From Lelliottia jeotgali (GTDB lineage: Bacteria > Pseudomonadota > Gammaproteobacteria > Enterobacterales > Enterobacteriaceae): a DNA stretch of 64,000 nucleotides. Below the pieces are notes generated by a model that saw nothing but the letters and a program-made list of their open reading frames with translations, did not search any database and was not told the DNA's origin. Below, piece by piece: positions 12,369 to 60,364 of the stretch. The stretch spans positions 3,224,001 to 3,288,000 of the forward strand of contig CP018628.1 in the NCBI GenBank assembly GCA_002271215.1. The letters are read 5' to 3'. Each line of letters opens with the position of its first letter. Position 1 is the first letter of the stretch. The translations under genes were made by a program, and so were the position numbers.

Positions 12369-12728
12369 ATGTCAGACGCGGTAAAAATTTATCACAACCC
12401 TCGCTGCTCCAAGAGCCGCGATACGCTGAGCCTGTTGAAATCTAACGGTATCGATCCTGAAATCGTATTGTATCTGGACACCCCTCCGGACGCCGCAACC
12501 CTTCGCCAGCTTCTGAGTATGCTGGGCATGACGAGCGCGCGGGAACTGATGCGCCAGAAAGAGGATCTGTATAAGTCGTTAAACCTTGACGATAGCCATC
12601 TGTCCGAAGATGCGCTCATTCAGGCGATGGTCGAGAATTCAAAGCTGATTGAGCGCCCGATCGTGGTGGCTAACGGTCAGGCGCGCATTGGTCGCCCACC
12701 GGAAGACGTGCTCGAAATCCTCAATTAA
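12369..12728 (+). CDS. yfgD: ArsC-family arsenate reductase-like protein YfgD
   Basis: This 119-residue thioredoxin-fold protein has the ArsC motif HNPRCSKSRDTL near the N-terminus (Cys13) and the C-terminal RPIVVANGQARIGRP segment typical of glutaredoxin-dependent ArsC. It matches E. coli YfgD. Being outside any ars operon, its arsenate reductase role is unproven. AAGGAGA lies before the ATG and the gene is probably co-transcribed with bepA. Its stop overlaps the stop of the convergent transposase-derived gene by three bases. Confidence 0.95.
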   Translation: MSDAVKIYHNPRCSKSRDTLSLLKSNGIDPEIVLYLDTPPDAATLRQLLSMLGMTSARELMRQKEDLYKSLNLDDSHLSEDALIQAMVENSKLIERPIVVANGQARIGRPPEDVLEILN

Positions 12729-13549
12729 TTCGACCGCCGCAGCGCTTCGAGAAAAGCCTGCGGCGTACTGTCTCCCAGCTTTTTCTGCGTTTTACCCTGA
12801 TTATAAAATTCACAGATCCGCATCAGCAGTTGCCCTGCCGGTTCCATATTCATCCGAGGAATAATCTCGCCTAACGGGATCGCCACCTGCACCGCGCAAT
12901 ACCGGGCCGCACTTCTTTTTACCCCAATCCCTTCAAGCGTTAACGGTGCAGTAAACCCAAAAGTCTCAACAGATTGGATATCAGCCGGACAGGCTTTTAA
13001 CAATTCATTCGCCCAGTTAGCCACCAGCTGCACCGAGATGCCTGCGTAAAGCCGGGCAAAACACCAACCGCTGATCGGCTCCCGTGCCCACAAAAGATGT
13101 TGCTCGCCGCCATCGTCCATGTGCAACGAGAGCGGCAGATGGTGCAATTCAAGCCGATGCGGCACCCCGCCTGCTTTTAAGGCTTTTTTACCCTGCAACG
13201 GCGCGCCCTGCCGTTGCACCGCAGCCGGTTTCAGGTAGCGATTGAGCGTTGCCCGCGAAACGCTGATCCCCAATCCTTCCGTCACCAAAAACAAAAGCTC
13301 GTCCAGCGGCGCACCGGTAGCGTCGCGTAGAGCATTAATCAACGCAATCTGCTCTTGTCTCATTGCTTTGTGTATCACTTTTGGGGTGGTGTGATTGTCT
13401 GAAACCTGGTCTCGTTTACGCCAGCGCCGGACGGTGGTCACTGAAATCCCCAGTTCAACAGCCAGCTCTCTGTCGCTTTTTTCGGACTGCTGAAGGTAGC
13501 GACGCGTCCGCGGCGTGGTCGTGGCATTGGCGTGCAGTTTAATTTCCAT
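12725..13549 (-). CDS. Transposase-derived helix-turn-helix protein, probably a regulator (IS481-like, DDE triad lost)
   Basis: This 274-residue protein looks like an IS481-type transposase from end to end. An N-terminal helix-turn-helix lies at about 24-50 (RELAVELGISVTTVRRWRKRD), with a second helical DNA-binding segment near 64-106. A reduced integrase-fold region spans about 130-230, and the transposase-like C-terminal FYNQGKTQKKLGDSTPQAFL motif comes at about 248-267. The acidic DDE residues expected after LHM, in TDNG and in the NGxxER segment are not present at the matching places. The frame is intact, has a GAGGG binding site, and lacks flanking inverted repeats or target duplications. 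I infer a domesticated transposase acting as a DNA-binding regulator of the divergent EIIC operon. A decaying transposase remnant is the alternative. Confidence 0.7.
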   Translation of the reverse strand: MEIKLHANATTTPRTRRYLQQSEKSDRELAVELGISVTTVRRWRKRDQVSDNHTTPKVIHKAMRQEQIALINALRDATGAPLDELLFLVTEGLGISVSRATLNRYLKPAAVQRQGAPLQGKKALKAGGVPHRLELHHLPLSLHMDDGGEQHLLWAREPISGWCFARLYAGISVQLVANWANELLKACPADIQSVETFGFTAPLTLEGIGVKRSAARYCAVQVAIPLGEIIPRMNMEPAGQLLMRICEFYNQGKTQKKLGDSTPQAFLEALRRSN

Positions 13550-13582
13550 CGCGAGCCCTCAGTGGAATTTCTTATAACCAAT

Positions 13583-13605
13583 CTTGTGAGATTTATATTA
13601 ACAAG
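13583..13605. promoter_or_regulatory. Inverted repeat in the divergent promoter region, candidate operator
   Basis: CTTGT and ACAAG are separated by 13 AT-rich bases. The inner TTGTGA/TAACAA arms extend the symmetry with one mismatch. It lies 34 bases from the start of the transposase-derived gene and just upstream of the CRP-type site. The TGT...ACA ends resemble IS481-type termini. Binding by the divergent regulator is a guess. Confidence 0.35.
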
Positions 13606-13615
13606 GCGATTACAT

Positions 13616-13658
13616 TGTGACCTGTTTCACCTTTCGGTCGCAACGCTTCGCTGATAAT
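13616..13658 (+). promoter_or_regulatory. CRP-type class II promoter of the EIIC operon
   Basis: TGTGA, six bases, then TCACC (13616-13631) is a close match to the CRP consensus TGTGA-N6-TCACA. GATAAT at 13653-13658 matches the -10 consensus in five of six positions. With a start at about 13665, the CRP dyad is centred at -41.5, the standard class II position. No good -35 element is present, as expected for such promoters. Confidence 0.65.
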
Positions 13659-13707
13659 CCTCAGACATAACACAAACAACGTCACTCGATCTTGTACGGA
13701 GTTCACA

Positions 13708-15027
13708 ATGAACAATGTTCTGGGATTTATGGAAGCAAAATTGATGCCGCTGGCGGCCAAAACGGCTCAGCAGCGTCATCTGGGTGCCATTCGTGGCGCG
13801 TACGTATCATTCATGCCATTTATCATCGTCGGCTCAATTCTGCTGGTGATCTCCTCGTTCCCGAATCAGACGTATCAGCAGTTTATGTCCTCGGCCTTTG
13901 GCGAAAGCTGGAGCTCGATCATTGAAATCCCGTTTAACGCCGTCTTCTCTACCATGTCGCTGTTTATCAGCTTCCTGGTTGCCTTCCGTCTGGCGGAGCA
14001 TTACGGCGAGGACCGCATTTCATGCGGTATTCTGGCGCTGGTTAGCTTCCTGATCCTCACGCCATTTATCAAAGTCGCGGAGAACGGCGGCATAACCGTC
14101 ATGCCGGTCGAATGGATTGGCAGCAAGGGGCTGTTCGTGGCGATGATTGGTTCGCTGCTGTGGACGGAGCTGTTCTGCTGGCTGAAGCGCAAAAACCTGG
14201 TGATCAAAATGCCAGACGGCGTGCCGCCTGCGGTGCAGGAATCTTTCGCCGCGCTGATCCCCGCCTTGCTGGTGATGATCCTGGTGCTGGTCATTCGCAT
14301 CGTGTTTGGAAACACCCACTATCACACCATTCATCAGTTCATCTATGAAGTGGTCGCCACGCCGGTGCGCCACTATGGCACGTCCTATTTCGGCGCGCTG
14401 ATGACGGTGTTCAGCATCACCATTTTGTGGTCTGTGGGTATTAACTCCGGGTCGATGATCAACGGCATCATCCGTCCGCTGTGGATGGAGAACCAGACCG
14501 ACAACATCGCCGCCATTCAGGCAGGCGTGACGCCGCCGCACATTATCACCGAGCAGTTTTTTGACATGATCTGGATGGGCGGCGCGGGTGCCACCCTGTC
14601 GCTGGTGATCGCGATGCTGATTTTTGCCCGCAGTAAAAACATGCGCGAAGTGGCGCGGCTCGGCGCGGGCGCGTCGGTGTTCAATATCAACGAACCGATT
14701 TTGTTCGGCCTGCCGGTGATCATGAACCCGATCATGCTGATTCCGTTTAACCTGGTGCCGCTGGTATTAGTCACCGTGCAATACGCGGCGATGAAACTGG
14801 GCGCCGTGGCGGTTACAACGGGAGTCTTTATTCCCTGGACGCTGCCGCCGGTGATCAGCGGATTTATCGTCACCGGGCATATTAGCGGCAGCGTGATGCA
14901 GCTGCTTAACCTGCTGATTGGCGCGATGCTTTATCTGCCTTTCATGCGGATTCTGGACAAACAGTACCGCGCGGCGGAAATTGCCACCGCGACGCAACCC
15001 GAAGCCACACTGGCGAAACAGGAGTAA
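13708..15027 (+). CDS. PTS EIIC permease, lactose/cellobiose/diacetylchitobiose family
   Basis: This 439-residue protein is a polytopic EIIC of the CelB/ChbC/LicC type. It starts with an amphipathic segment (FMEAKLMPLAAKTAQQRHL), has about ten hydrophobic segments, and carries the family signature VFNINEPILFGLPVIMNPI near 330-350. It contains only the membrane C domain. No EIIA or EIIB gene is nearby, so phosphotransfer must come from partners elsewhere, possibly ChbA/ChbB-type proteins. GGAG precedes the ATG. The next gene starts three bases after its stop and the third overlaps, so the three genes form one operon. Substrate specificity cannot be read from the sequence; the glycosylasparaginase next door suggests a GlcNAc-containing glycoside or glycoamino acid. 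Confidence 0.9.
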   Translation: MNNVLGFMEAKLMPLAAKTAQQRHLGAIRGAYVSFMPFIIVGSILLVISSFPNQTYQQFMSSAFGESWSSIIEIPFNAVFSTMSLFISFLVAFRLAEHYGEDRISCGILALVSFLILTPFIKVAENGGITVMPVEWIGSKGLFVAMIGSLLWTELFCWLKRKNLVIKMPDGVPPAVQESFAALIPALLVMILVLVIRIVFGNTHYHTIHQFIYEVVATPVRHYGTSYFGALMTVFSITILWSVGINSGSMINGIIRPLWMENQTDNIAAIQAGVTPPHIITEQFFDMIWMGGAGATLSLVIAMLIFARSKNMREVARLGAGASVFNINEPILFGLPVIMNPIMLIPFNLVPLVLVTVQYAAMKLGAVAVTTGVFIPWTLPPVISGFIVTGHISGSVMQLLNLLIGAMLYLPFMRILDKQYRAAEIATATQPEATLAKQE

Positions 15028-15030
15028 AGC

Positions 15031-15990
15031 ATGTGGGGAATTATCGCAACCTGGCGAATGGCGCTGGAAGGCGTGACGGAGTCTGCGTCTGCGCTGGCTG
15101 CGGGGAAGCCAGTTTCATCGGCGGTAGTGGATGCCGTTGCCACCGTTGAAGACTTCCCGTATTACAAGTCGGTCGGTTACGGCGGGCTGCCCACCGAAAA
15201 TGGCGACGTGGAACTCGACGCCGCCTATATGGACGGCGATACGCTGGCCTTTGGTGCGGTAGGGAATCTGGTGGATATCGCCAACCCGGTGCGCGTCGCG
15301 CAGGCGCTTAGCCGCCAGCGCTACAACAGCCTGCTGGTCGGCCAGGGCGCGCGGGAATGGGCGCTCAGCCAGGGCTTTGCCGACAAGACCATGCTCACCG
15401 ACCGGGCGATGCAGCACTACCGCAAACGCTGTCGCGAAACGCTGGATAAAGGCTTAAGCCCCTACGATGGACACGACACCGTCGGCATTATCGGGCTTGA
15501 TAAACAGGGGTCGATGAGCGTCGCCACCTCCACCAGCGGCCTGTTTATGAAAAAACGCGGACGCATCGGGGATTCACCGATCATCGGTTCCGGCTTTTAT
15601 TGCGACAGCGAAACAGGTGCCGCCACTGCCACTGGTGTGGGGGAAGATTTAATGAAAGGCTGCACCAGCTACGAGATCGTGCGCCGTATGGCGCAGGGGA
15701 TGACACCACAACGCGCTGCAGATTCCGTGGTCTTCGAACTGGAAGACAAACTGATGTCGCGCTTTGGTCGCGTGGGCGATCTTTCGGTGGTGTGTATGAA
15801 TAACAAAGGCGAGTTTGGCGCAGCGACCAATATCAAAACCTTCTCGTTTGTCGTCGCTACCGCAAATCAACCGTTGACCGTTTTCCGCACCGAACGCCTG
15901 CGCGAGAAAACCCATTATCAGGCCGTGGATGACGAATGGATGCAGGCCTATGCCGCGCGGATCCGCGCCCCGATTGAGGAACAATCATGA
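15031..15990 (+). CDS. N(4)-(beta-N-acetylglucosaminyl)-L-asparaginase (glycosylasparaginase)
   Basis: This 319-residue Ntn-hydrolase of the glycosylasparaginase family has the autocleavage motif GHDTVG, making Thr150 the new N-terminal nucleophile of the beta chain. Other family motifs are TSTSGLFMKKRGRIGDSPIIGSGFYC and ATATGVGEDLM. The enzyme hydrolyses the GlcNAc-asparagine bond of N-glycans, giving aspartate and 1-amino-GlcNAc. No signal peptide is visible: the protein starts MWGIIATWRMALEGV, which is already the conserved core. It should therefore act in the cytoplasm, unlike the secreted Elizabethkingia enzyme. It starts three bases after the EIIC stop with AGGAG upstream, and its TGA overlaps the start of the peptidase gene. 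Confidence 0.9.
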   Translation: MWGIIATWRMALEGVTESASALAAGKPVSSAVVDAVATVEDFPYYKSVGYGGLPTENGDVELDAAYMDGDTLAFGAVGNLVDIANPVRVAQALSRQRYNSLLVGQGAREWALSQGFADKTMLTDRAMQHYRKRCRETLDKGLSPYDGHDTVGIIGLDKQGSMSVATSTSGLFMKKRGRIGDSPIIGSGFYCDSETGAATATGVGEDLMKGCTSYEIVRRMAQGMTPQRAADSVVFELEDKLMSRFGRVGDLSVVCMNNKGEFGAATNIKTFSFVVATANQPLTVFRTERLREKTHYQAVDDEWMQAYAARIRAPIEEQS

Positions 15991-17414
15991 TTTCCTGTGA
16001 GCTTATAACCACTCTTGCAAAAGCAAAACCGCACAGCCATTTGCTGGCGTACCCGTCCAGCGCCCTGCTGCCAGATACTGCGCTTATCAACGAAATGCGC
16101 GAACAGAAAAACGTGGCGGATGCGCGCTTCGGCTGCGCGCCGTTTTCCCGTATTACCCTCCTGCCGGACGCACTCTGGCATGACGCGCTGACCGATGGAT
16201 TACTCGCCGCGCTGCGCCCACTTTTCGCCGCACCGGCCAGCGAGAATGTGGTGCTGGATGTCAGCAACATTCACGACACCGTTCTGGTGCAGTTGCTGCG
16301 CTTTCTGTTCAATCAGGCGCACAGACTCAGCGATTTAAAGCTGAAGAAAACAGCCGACACTGACCTTCGGATTCGCCACGTCACCGTCCTGTGTTTGCCT
16401 GAGCAGCAGGAACACCTGAGCAAAATCATTGAGCAGCAGCGGGCCATCGCCAACGGTATGATCGCCGCACGCCGTCTGGCAGATACGCCGTCGGATCGCT
16501 GTACGCCGCAGTATGTGGTCGACGAGGCGCAAACACTCTGTGCCGCCTTCCCTGCCCTGCGCTGCGAAGTGCTCGATGAAAAACAGATCGTAGAGCAAGG
16601 TCTGGGACTGTTACACGCCGTCGGCAAAGGGGCCACCTGCCCACCGCGCCTGTTGGCGATTCATTATGACGGCACAAATGACGGTCCGGTGCGCTGCTAC
16701 GTAGGCAAAGGGATCACGTTTGATACGGGCGGTCTGTGGCTGAAAGAAGGCGCGGGCATGTACACCATGAAGTACGACATGTGCGGTGCAGCCAACGTAC
16801 TGGGCCTGATGCTGACCGTGGCGGAGTTGAATCTTCCCGTGAGGATCATGGGCGTGCTGGCGCTGGCGGAAAACGCCATTGGCCCGGATGCCATGCAGCC
16901 GGGAACGGTGGCACGCGCCTGTAACGGTCTGACGGTGGAAATCAACAATACCGACGCCGAAGGACGGCTGGTGTTGGCCGATGCCATCGCCTGGGCCAGT
17001 CAGCGGCATCCGCAGGCGCACTACATTATTGATATGGCGACATTAACCGGCGCGGTGGTAAAAGCGCTGGGGTATGAGCTGAGTGGGTTGATGACGCAGA
17101 ACGAGCCACTGCGCCAGGCGTTGTCCCTCGTAGGCAAAACGAGCGGCGATGACGTATGGTCGCTGCCGCTGGACGCGCGGCTGAAAAAGCAGACGGAGAG
17201 CACGATTGCCGACCTGTGCAATACGCCGACCAACAATGCGGCGATCAGCGCGTCGGCTGCATGGTTATTACATCATTTTTGTCCGCCGACGATTCCGTGG
17301 GCGCACCTGGATATCAGCGGGACCGCGTTGTGGCGTGAAGGCGGGAGAAGCGTGGCGTCAGGAAGACCGATTCCGTTATTAGTCGAGCATTTGTTAGCGG
17401 ATATCGAATCGTAG
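15987..17414 (+). CDS. M17 leucyl aminopeptidase family protein
   Basis: This 475-residue M17 metallo-aminopeptidase has a catalytic C-terminal domain that retains the metal and catalytic residues: [10 protein letters not shown] near 239-248, MKYDMCGAAN near 256-265 and [13 protein letters not shown] near 321-333. The N-terminal domain is poorly conserved relative to PepA. It overlaps the glycosylasparaginase gene by four bases (ATGA) and has GAGGA upstream. The natural guess is that it trims peptides from imported glycopeptides, or cleaves aspartyl or asparaginyl dipeptides, but specificity cannot be read. It is distinct from pepB at 59078-60364. Confidence 0.88.
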   Translation: MISCELITTLAKAKPHSHLLAYPSSALLPDTALINEMREQKNVADARFGCAPFSRITLLPDALWHDALTDGLLAALRPLFAAPASENVVLDVSNIHDTVLVQLLRFLFNQAHRLSDLKLKKTADTDLRIRHVTVLCLPEQQEHLSKIIEQQRAIANGMIAARRLADTPSDRCTPQYVVDEAQTLCAAFPALRCEVLDEKQIVEQGLGLLHAVGKGATCPPRLLAIHYDGTNDGPVRCYVGKGITFDTGGLWLKEGAGMYTMKYDMCGAANVLGLMLTVAELNLPVRIMGVLALAENAIGPDAMQPGTVARACNGLTVEINNTDAEGRLVLADAIAWASQRHPQAHYIIDMATLTGAVVKALGYELSGLMTQNEPLRQALSLVGKTSGDDVWSLPLDARLKKQTESTIADLCNTPTNNAAISASAAWLLHHFCPPTIPWAHLDISGTALWREGGRSVASGRPIPLLVEHLLADIES

Positions 17415-17496: not shown

Positions 17497-18198
17497 CTAT
17501 AACTTGAGCGTTTCTTTCACAAACGGAATGGTCAGCTTGCGCTGAGCGGTAATGGACGCGCGATCGAGCTGATCCAGCGTATCAAATAGAGTTCGCATCT
17601 CGCGATCCAGCCGCTTTAACAGAAAACGTCCCACGTCTTCCGGCAGCTCAAACCCACGTAACCGCGAGCGCAACTGCAGCGCCTGAAGCTTGTCTTCATC
17701 AGAGAGTGGCTGGAGTTTATAGATTTGTCCCCAGTCGAGGCGCGACGCCAGATCCGGTAATCCGAGGTTTAGCTGACGCGGCGGGCGATCCCCGGTGATC
17801 AGCAACCGGGTTTTACCCGATTCCAGAATGCGATTGTAGAGGTTGAACATCGCCATTTCCCACAGCTCATCCCCGGCGATGCATTCGATATTGTCGATAC
17901 AGACCAGCGAAAGATGTTCCATACCGTCGAGCACTTCCGGGACAAACCAGGTTCGCTTATCCAACGGCACATAGCCTACCGCGTCCCCGCGCTGGGAAAG
18001 CTCCGCGCAGGCGGCGTGCAGCAGATGGCTGCGTCCCGCGCCTTCGCGTGACCAGATATAAATGTATCCGCTGTGCTCCTGGCGTAACACGTTTTGCAAC
18101 GCAGCCAGTAAAGAGGGGTTATCGCCCGGCCAAAAACTCGCGAAAGTTTCGTCGTCAGGAAGATAAAGTGGCAGAGAGAGCTGTGCCGGTCCGTTCAG
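17497..18198 (-). CDS. hda: DnaA regulatory inactivator Hda
   Basis: Hda is an AAA+ protein that, with the DNA-loaded beta clamp, stimulates ATP hydrolysis on DnaA (RIDA) and so prevents re-initiation. The protein has 233 residues if begun at the CTG codon at 18196-18198 ([11 protein letters not shown]). This is where E. coli hda starts, at an unusual CUG, and GAGG lies five bases before it. The N-terminal QLSLPL clamp-binding motif is intact. A degenerate Walker A ([11 protein letters not shown]), Walker B (LVCIDNIE), sensor 1 and arginine finger regions follow. An in-frame GTG at 18246 would give 249 residues with a non-conserved extension. It is downstream of uraA on the same strand. Confidence 0.93.
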
Positions 18199-18263
18199 AA
18201 ATACCTCGATCAAGGTCTCACATAAAATCGGGAGGGAGTTTATCACGGAACCCGCGATGAGAG

Positions 18264-59077: not shown

Positions 59078-60364
59078 TTACTCAGCCGTCAACAGATTCG
59101 CAATAGTGCGCACACCCAGACCGGTGGCGCCCGCAGACCACTGCTCCACGCCCGCTTTACGGTAGGTGGCGGAACAGTCGATGTGCAGCCAGCCTTCGCG
59201 ATAGTTTTCAACAAAGTGGGACAGGAAACCTGCCGCGGTGCTTGCGCCTGCCGGATAGGCTGCGCTCGCAGTGTTGTTCAGCTCGGCAAAATTAGATGGC
59301 AGCTGGCTGCGGTGGAATTCGGCCAACGGCAGACGCCAGAACGGTTCGTTCTCGGCGGCGGCACTCGCCAGCAGACGGGCGGCCAGTTTGTCGTCGAAGC
59401 TGAACAGGGCGTGATAGTCGTTGCCCAGGGCGGTTTTCGCCGCACCCGTCAGGGTCGCCATATCGATGATCAGCTCTGGTTTCTGCGCAGATGCGTCAAT
59501 CAGGCCATCGGCCAGCACCAGACGGCCTTCGGCGTCGGTGTTCATGACTTCAACGTTTTTACCGTTGCGATAGCGAATGATATCGCCCAGCTTGAACGCG
59601 TTGCCGCTCACCATGTTGTCGGCGCAGCACAGGTACAGTTTCACGCGCTTATTCAGACCACGGGTGATGGCAAACGCCAGTGCGCCAGTGATGGTCGCCG
59701 CGCCGCCCATGTCGGACTTCATAGAGTCCATGAATGCGCTTTGTTTCAGGCTATAGCCGCCGGTATCAAAGGTGATACCTTTCCCGACCAGGCAGGCAAA
59801 GACAGGCGCTTGTTTGTCACCCGTTGGGTTGAAATCCAGCGCCAGCAGTACCGGTGGGCGCTCAGAGCCACGGCCCACGGTGTGAATACCCATGTAGTTC
59901 TGCTCGCGCAGATCTTCACCTTTGGTGATGCGGTACGACATTTTATCGCCTGCCGCTTTGCACAGCAGATCGACCGCGCGCTGCGCCAGCTGCTCTGGAC
60001 CGAGCTCTTCCGCCGGGGCGTTGATGGTGTCGCGCACCCAGTCGATGATGGTCAGACGGTTTTCCAGCTCTTTCTGCGCGGCTTCATCGAGGTTTGCCCA
60101 CTCGACTTTACGGGTGCCTTTCGGGCCTTTGTAACCCGCCCAGAAGGCCCAGCTGCGATCCGTGTCCCAGCCTTCACCAGCTAGAGTGACATGCTTGATG
60201 CCCAGGCCGTCGATTTTACGCGCGGCGCGCTGGATCAGACCCAAATCATCGGAATCGTTCAGGTGCAGGGTAATACCGTCGTTGTTAATGCTGTAGGTGG
60301 CTTTGTCGCCCCAGCGTGCGTCCGCAGGCTGTGTAGAGAGCGTAATTTTCATCGCTTCGGTCAT
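59078..60364 (-). CDS. pepB: Aminopeptidase B (peptidase B)
   Basis: PepB is an M17 aminopeptidase with a preference for acidic N-termini (Asp, Glu). It has 428 residues from ATG at 60364 ([19 protein letters not shown]), matching E. coli (427). Metal-binding [18 protein letters not shown] and [13 protein letters not shown] motifs are intact. The longer frame adds seven unconserved residues. It is adjacent to the isc genes as in E. coli, here separated from iscX by an ERIC element. Confidence 0.97.

Follow-up and report, generated by a model that had tools for sequence, protein, structure and literature searches.

We examined four adjacent genes in a 64,000-nucleotide stretch of Lelliottia jeotgali DNA (contig CP018628.1; hereafter the window), where a regulator-like gene diverges from the genes for an enzyme IIC of the phosphotransferase system (PTS), a predicted glycosylasparaginase and an M17 peptidase. 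The cluster is a real unit, held together beyond what chance would give. On comparative sequence evidence, it is probably (probability about 0.77) a catabolic operon for glycoasparagines that CRP activates and the substrate controls. The initial annotation had proposed a PTS route for N-acetylglucosamine-asparagine (GlcNAc-Asn) or N-glycopeptides and had called the system undescribed. The route appears to be the best reading, with strong comparative support; the claim of novelty did not survive, since a system of this kind, the ega locus of Enterococcus faecalis, has already been published (Combret et al. 2023/24; PMC11160706). For this locus and the Lacticaseibacillus casei cluster discussed below, we relied on the parts of the articles available to us.

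The assignment of a substrate begins with the hydrolase. Pfam assigned the three plus-strand genes to PTS_EIIC (203 bits), Asparaginase_2 (213 bits) and Peptidase_M17 (346 bits, against a cut-off of 25). The closest PDB matches of the hydrolase were glycosylasparaginases (189 bits), the next family member scoring 124 bits, and we aligned the protein to 1P4K/9GAA. In 84 aligned hydrolase rows, T7, W8, D149, T150, R178, D181, T201 and G202 were kept in all and T168 in 83. We take these residues to be the nucleophilic threonine, in an H-D-T motif, and the Trp, Arg, Asp and Thr-Gly of the substrate pocket. The conserved residues and the PDB matches agree with the glycosylasparaginase call of the initial annotation, and the protein is a predicted glycosylasparaginase (EC 3.5.1.26). 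An isoaspartyl peptidase or plant-type asparaginase (IaaA) was considered and rejected: the NCBIfam beta-aspartyl-peptidase model gave 113.7 bits against a cut-off of 567, and the residues differ. The host genome (4.60 Mb, one contig) has a separate iaaA-like gene elsewhere, and its own isoaspartyl-peptidase-like protein deviates at T7, W8 and D149. Because the hydrolase begins at a mature-type N-terminus and no signal peptide was seen by eye, it is predicted to be cytoplasmic. Lacticaseibacillus (L.) casei AsnA2, likewise devoid of a signal peptide, cleaves GlcNAc-Asn in vitro, and such enzymes require a free alpha-amino and a free alpha-carboxyl group on the asparagine (PMC6960285).

The IIC passed the TIGR00410 model for the Lac/cellobiose family (441.8 bits against a cut-off of 236) and, narrowly, TIGR00359 (434.45 bits needed), and its residues 5-427 aligned to the chitobiose-type transporter 3QNQ with 372 bits. 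Identity with ChbC was rejected: model NF007634 gave 218.7 bits against a required 760, and an asparagine replaces the histidine of the usual motif. The placement of the IIC in the family that includes diacetylchitobiose permeases was therefore right at the level of the family and does not extend to ChbC itself. The motif reads G-I-N in 18 of 18 hydrolase-linked IICs from Proteobacteria and Firmicutes, and G-[IV]-H in 3QNQ and in the host's two other aligned IICs. We presume that His250 of 3QNQ has a role in sugar binding. In a census of Lac-family IICs covering seven genomes (33 matches, 30 with loci), asparagine was present in all six IICs that share a short locus with the hydrolase; the other 24 comprised 19 with histidine, three with asparagine and two for which the motif was not obtained. 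Two of those three are copies from Clostridium sp. KNHs214; in the one contig opened, about 8 kb separate the Asn-type IIC from the hydrolase, and both share a strand. The exchange of asparagine for histidine may tag glycoasparagine-type IICs. A Priestia megaterium IIC, at 45%, was also found, without annotation.

To assess conservation, we carried out the gene-neighbourhood survey suggested by the initial annotation, using 60 genomes of the genus and 295 of the family. Across the family, the hydrolase was present in 33 genomes (E <= 1e-60) and the IIC, at 72% identity or more, in 32; a threshold of E <= 1e-100 admitted 36 genomes for the IIC, the additional four only through relatives of 39-43% identity. 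The regulator occurred in the same 32 genomes as the IIC and the hydrolase, plus a weak match (29%) in genome G216, and the sole hydrolase-bearing genome outside the 32 was G321. All four genes lay together in each of the 31 family regions opened (22 at the yfgD/hda site, nine elsewhere), or, with the window included, in 32 of 32 genomes (23 and nine). As the four genes are together in every one of these genomes at differing sites, the set evidently moves and is kept as a block. A named collection of 52 loci (L064-L115) likewise had all four genes in each. The co-occurrence whose absence would have spoken against the proposal is thus conserved. Within the genus, distribution was patchy: a full-length hydrolase orthologue (at least 92% identity) was found in 40 of 60 genomes and none in 18. 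One genus genome (G002:C1:3515058-3516001) has the hydrolase split in two pieces, and another (G007, locus L063) retains a decayed copy at the yfgD-hda site with partial regulator, hydrolase and M17 genes.

Related loci in other lineages vary in their gene content. Seven loci, from Serratia, Hafnia, Klebsiella sp. BIGb0407, Izhakiella, Atlantibacter, an uncultured Cedecea and a Providencia metagenome-assembled genome (MAG), have the order regulator (divergent)-IIC-hydrolase-M17-IIB-IIA. In 11 loci of Buttiauxella, Cedecea davisae and their kin, the regulator sits at the far end, IIB was detected in five (in two pieces in L131) and IIA in none. Four Vibrionaceae loci have the order IIC-hydrolase-IIB-IIA, with no M17 gene detected. 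Taken together with one Oceanospirillales MAG, these last two types form a group of 16 loci with IIC and hydrolase in all, the regulator in 15 and M17 in 12. In a tree of 31 hydrolases, all gammaproteobacterial rows except G321 grouped together (21 rows, 100/99), the full-operon and IIA-less types fell in one group of 14 (100/100), and Buttiauxella joined Vibrionaceae at 92/86, which is below the starred level; several forks are open, and the placement of G321 and the outgroup is unsure.

Parallel assemblies occur in another phylum. Among 12 Clostridia loci with hydrolases of 59-62% identity, four of them copies from one strain, at least one Lac-type PTS gene lay near the hydrolase in all 12 and an M20/Sapep-like dipeptidase in 11. 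The four copies are those of Clostridium sp. KNHs214, whose same hydrolase region appears on four contigs (L136-L139), either as repeats or as an assembly artefact. The Clostridioides (C.) difficile locus L141 encodes an antiterminator-like regulator, IIA, IIB, IIC, a 172-aa protein, the hydrolase, a dipeptidase and a CutC-like protein, some of these names being assigned by reading the translations. Enterococcus gilvus has the order GntR, dipeptidase, hydrolase, IIB, IIC, IIA, and Latilactobacillus curvatus has the hydrolase, GntR, a 'selenoprotein B family' gene, IIC and a dipeptidase; IIA and IIB were not among the 16 features around the L. curvatus hydrolase. A gene of 172-174 aa thus recurs inside Firmicute glycosylasparaginase loci (L141:6406-6924; L004:9695-10219, the 'selenoprotein B family' gene of L. 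curvatus). In genome G321 (L056:4665-8952), genes for a Glc-type EIIBC, a NagB-like protein and a hydrolase of 46% identity are lined up, with a LacI-type regulator gene pointing away from them (gene names by reading). Another type of PTS has here been recruited to the same hydrolase beside a NagB-like enzyme, which supports an amino-sugar phosphate as the product. No glycosidase was seen in the annotated or fully listed loci; the remaining loci were probed with chosen queries only.

The 158 bases between the regulator and IIC genes contain conserved promoter elements (Table 1). The centre of the CRP-like site lies 29.5 bases before the first base of GATAAT, which is position -41.5 if GATAAT is the -10 element. 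In 53 regulator/IIC intergenic regions, the CRP-like pattern TGTGA-N6-[TG]CA[AC] was always present (46 with the strict TGTGA-N6-TCAC), its spacing to the -10 element (NNTAAT[CT]) was the same in 52, and a dyad AATC-N6-GA[TC] was found in 49. From 46 of these regions, we built a weight matrix for the dyad as a candidate operator; the window scored 39.7, against 9.7 for its next site, as a member of the training set. In 15 distant loci, where the regulator is not divergent from IIC, the top site nonetheless lay upstream of IIC in every case. Scores there ran from 1.2 to 26.1 and two were weak (L128, 9.3 against 9.0 for the next site elsewhere; L131, only 1.2). An inverted copy near the -35 position was the second or third best site in nine of the 15 and the top site in two Enterovibrio loci. 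The conserved element tracks the operon and not the position of the regulator gene, a pattern consistent with an operator for the regulator, with common ancestry contributing to the resemblance. The 11 loci of the Buttiauxella/Cedecea type likewise have a CRP-like site upstream of IIC, and the four Vibrionaceae loci have none of the strict form there.

The regulator itself, which the initial annotation called transposase-derived, is related to IS481 transposases and falls short of being one. Beyond the helix-turn-helix (HTH), its family-level matches were all to transposase models below their cut-offs, the best being NCBIfam IS481 (residues 19-194, E 5.8e-12, 45.7 bits against a cut-off of 224), and no sequence match was found in the PDB. 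An active transposase was rejected as an explanation, given this score and the fact that each of the 32 genomes has just one match, which adjoins the operon. In 27 regulators, the HTH (residues about 1-46) was nearly invariant down to 36% overall identity, and most of the rest was variable. With regard to the D-D-E catalytic triad of IS481 transposases, no Asp or Glu from residue 84 onwards was invariant, and D146, E157 and E195 were kept in at least 90% of the rows. Orthologues are listed under names such as 'XRE family'. Compared with IS481 transposases, with which it shares weak similarity, this protein stays below cut-off, is most constrained in its HTH and is fixed beside one operon.

A complete PTS enzyme II combines the IIC with IIA and IIB, and here neither is encoded with the IIC, a point on which the initial annotation was silent. 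Searches by tblastn with eight IIB/IIA queries found none in the unit or in the whole window. The host genome has three Lac-type IIA matches and 12 PTS_IIB matches, among them a lone IIB-IIA pair beside rpoC (L156:5662-6288; G000:C1 about 215.7-216.3 kb). A GGDEF-type protein (L156:6475-8010) adjoins this pair (names by reading), and no IIC was present in the 12 kb read around it. At 83% identity or more, the rpoC-type IIB was found in 66 of the 295 genomes of the family and in every one of the 60 of the genus; IIA accompanied it in 30 of 30 loci checked, the rpoC end being visible in 18 of these 30 short loci. It was present in all 28 genomes with an IIA-less operon and in none of the four, from three genera, whose operon bears IIA (Fisher p 2.7e-21, kinship uncorrected). 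We compared operon-type IIBs with three of the host's 12 IIBs: the rpoC-type IIB was closest by bit score in nine of nine rows, with small margins over a beta-glucoside-type IIB, and ChbB was clearly the farthest (34-42% identity). Operon IIAs did not discriminate, ChbA being as close as the others (49-55% identity). By these comparisons, the rpoC-linked pair would be the likeliest available partner for the orphan IIC. A stricter form of this idea, in which the pair is dedicated to the operon, was rejected, since its IIB is in all 60 genus genomes whether or not they have the operon.

The M17 protein has the catalytic domain, and its metal-site and NTDAEGR motifs were intact by eye in an alignment to 3H8E; it fell below all 13 listed NCBIfam aminopeptidase cut-offs. 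Since hydrolases of this type need the alpha groups of asparagine to be free, a linked peptidase would have a role in exposing them. A second M17-type gene lies in the window (59150-60034, minus strand), 38% identical to the operon peptidase; it is presumably pepB.

Table 1. Positions in the window of the four-gene unit, its candidate control elements and the flanking genes
Feature	Position	Strand	Remarks
Regulator-like gene	12725-13549	-	HTH and IS481-transposase-like C-terminal region
PTS EIIC, lactose/cellobiose/chitobiose family	13708-15027	+	G-I-N motif for usual G-[IVL]-H
Predicted N4-(beta-N-acetylglucosaminyl)-L-asparaginase (glycosylasparaginase)	15031-15990	+	H-D-T150 motif
M17 (leucyl-aminopeptidase-type) peptidase	15987-17414	+	Pfam; alignment to 3H8E
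Candidate regulator operator, dyad AATC-N6-GATT	13580-13593		within conserved block AACCAATCTTGTGAGATTTATA, 13574-13597
CRP-like site TGTGACCTGTTTCAC	13616-13630	+	centre 13623.5
Candidate -10 element GATAAT	13653-13658	+	
yfgD/arsC-like gene (ArsC family)	12369-12728	+	flanking, outside unit
hda	17497-18246	-	flanking, outside unit

The initial annotation had placed the four open reading frames, with the regulator divergent, correctly to the base, including the 3-base gap between IIC and hydrolase (15028-15030) and the 4-base overlap between hydrolase and M17; the ends of yfgD and the regulator gene also overlap by four bases. Its statement that yfgD and hda are adjacent in Escherichia coli was borne out in one E. 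coli record, where arsC/yfgD is followed by hda with nothing between. We found hda in 5,375 of 5,426 E. coli genomes, and the stretch 12725-17414 had no megablast match among 20,395 E. coli records.

What the sequences show directly is the gene content, the linkage and the conservation of residues and promoter elements. For the substrate, its phosphorylation, the partner proteins and the role and sign of the regulator, we infer the following route. GlcNAc-Asn, alone or on a very short peptide, would enter through the IIC, and IIA and IIB from other loci would supply the phosphate for C6 of the sugar, the best candidate being the rpoC-linked pair, with ChbB/ChbA or beta-glucoside-type proteins as alternative donors. 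The hydrolase would then release aspartate and 1-amino-GlcNAc-6-phosphate, which would fall apart into ammonia and GlcNAc-6-phosphate and enter the NagA/NagB pathway; NagA is present in the host genome. The IS481-like protein would bind the AATC...GATT-type operator, presumably as a repressor released by the substrate or a breakdown product.

Several observations weigh against this route. The missing IIB and IIA leave the PTS incomplete unless its parts are borrowed, and operon-type IIB/IIA share no more than about 43-51% identity with the rpoC-linked pair, whose IIB also occurs in 38 family genomes beyond the 28 (G321 among them) and in genus genomes without the operon. One unlinked IIC (L202) has the asparagine with no hydrolase in the 9 kb opened. 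Four of the 16 loci in the Buttiauxella/Vibrionaceae group have no M17. L. casei did not grow on GlcNAc-Asn itself, since its permease needs the fucosylated form, and its pepV mutant grew like the wild type (PMC6960285).

These points bear differently on the competing explanations. The wide spread of the rpoC-type IIB, the apparently complete chb operon of the host (by reading), the equal closeness of ChbA and the comparison of only three of 12 IIBs would all suit an IIC energised by ChbB/ChbA or another IIB/IIA, with the rpoC pair unrelated. Such an arrangement is compatible with the same substrate, and we give it a real, if minority, chance. Against it stand the top rank of the rpoC IIB and the last rank of ChbB in all nine rows, together with the 28-to-0 association described above. 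A broader joint claim has somewhat less than even odds: that a mobile operon lost IIA, and mostly IIB, at least twice, each time in genomes already endowed with the rpoC pair, which would power the orphan IIC, and that a tamed IS481-type transposase would have become a dedicated operator-binding regulator with a similar operator across Enterobacterales and Vibrionaceae. The conservation of D146, E157 and E195 and the weakness of two operator matches count slightly against this claim.

The glycoasparagine reading could also be right in outline and wrong about what enters the cell. Short N-glycopeptides might be the true import substrate, with the peptidase central; a peptidase is linked in most loci, its type following lineage (M17 in enterics, M20/Sapep in Firmicutes), and pepV has its closest relatives in linkage with homologues of asnA2 (PMC6960285). 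Yet the pepV mutant behaved like the wild type on a fucosylated glycoamino acid (PMC6960285), and this result and the M17-less Vibrionaceae loci together indicate that the peptidase is not essential. The variant is unlikely on balance. It is further disfavoured in that we know of no precedent for the carriage of peptides by a Lac-family IIC. The same operon might instead serve chiefly chitobiosyl-Asn, Glc-Asn or other beta-aspartyl glycosylamines, passing a sugar phosphate to ChbF-like enzymes. Its IIC family handles disaccharides, the genome has a chb operon, and glycosylasparaginases tolerate longer glycans, but the lack of a glycosidase in the annotated or fully listed loci and the NagB-like protein of the G321 variant make this improbable. 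A neutral residue of horizontal transfer, its genes doing nothing together, would suit the patchiness seen in the genus, with split and remnant copies; strict co-occurrence, conserved active sites and promoter elements, and parallel assembly in another phylum leave that idea hardly credible.

The proposed GlcNAc-Asn operon has known counterparts. According to its title, the article on ega reports that the use of glycoprotein-derived GlcNAc-Asn by E. faecalis in infection depends on this locus. It encodes EgaG, the IIB and IIC of a lactose/cellobiose PTS, a dipeptidase and a GntR regulator, and also contains an oxidoreductase pseudogene (PMC11160706). As in ega, the gene for a predicted glycosylasparaginase accompanies that for a Lac-family PTS IIC, and all 32 genomes that have this IIC keep the pairing; where ega has GntR, a dipeptidase and IIB, the present unit has the IS481-like regulator, M17 and no IIB, and unlike ega it has a CRP-like site and a Gram-negative host. 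The ega locus was compared by description, sequence comparisons being made with E. gilvus and L. curvatus; E. faecalis was not named among our best 120 matches. The alf-2 cluster of L. casei (AlfH, AlfC, AsnA2, PepV, SugK) shares the linked peptidase and the glycosylasparaginase without signal peptide and differs in having a major facilitator superfamily permease, a fucosidase, a separate sugar kinase and GntR, uptake in L. casei not being by a PTS (PMC6960285). The legend of Fig. 7 in that article explains 'PTS' for the compared clusters, including those of L. curvatus and L. sakei. Two other articles (PMC12791066, PMC13048965) refer to Becerra et al. and Combret et al. and, in the parts available, add nothing on Gram-negatives. 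From ChbC and 3QNQ, of the same family by sequence, our IIC differs in having Asn for the His of G-I-H and a linked, predicted glycoasparagine hydrolase. Among enterics, the fra locus of Salmonella serves the catabolism of fructose-asparagine with different enzymes and a different transporter. We found no enterobacterial version of the present system in the open-licence full-text literature, which does not show that none exists; within the reach of our searches, what looks new is how the variant is composed, its regulator with the candidate operator, the signature in its IIC and its likely use of PTS parts from elsewhere.

If the glycoasparagine reading is correct, PTS-driven use of N-glycan remnants would extend from Gram-positive to Gram-negative bacteria and would reach many strains of Enterobacter, Lelliottia, the Klebsiella oxytoca group, Kluyvera, Citrobacter, Hafnia and Serratia, as well as marine Vibrionaceae. 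At present, the system sits under other labels, the IIC matching a 'cellobiose IIC' model and the regulator being named 'XRE family'. The sharing of PTS parts between loci can be tested on the rpoC-linked IIB-IIA pair. The regulator, whose candidate operator is readable, likewise allows a test of whether a relative of transposases has become a transcription factor.

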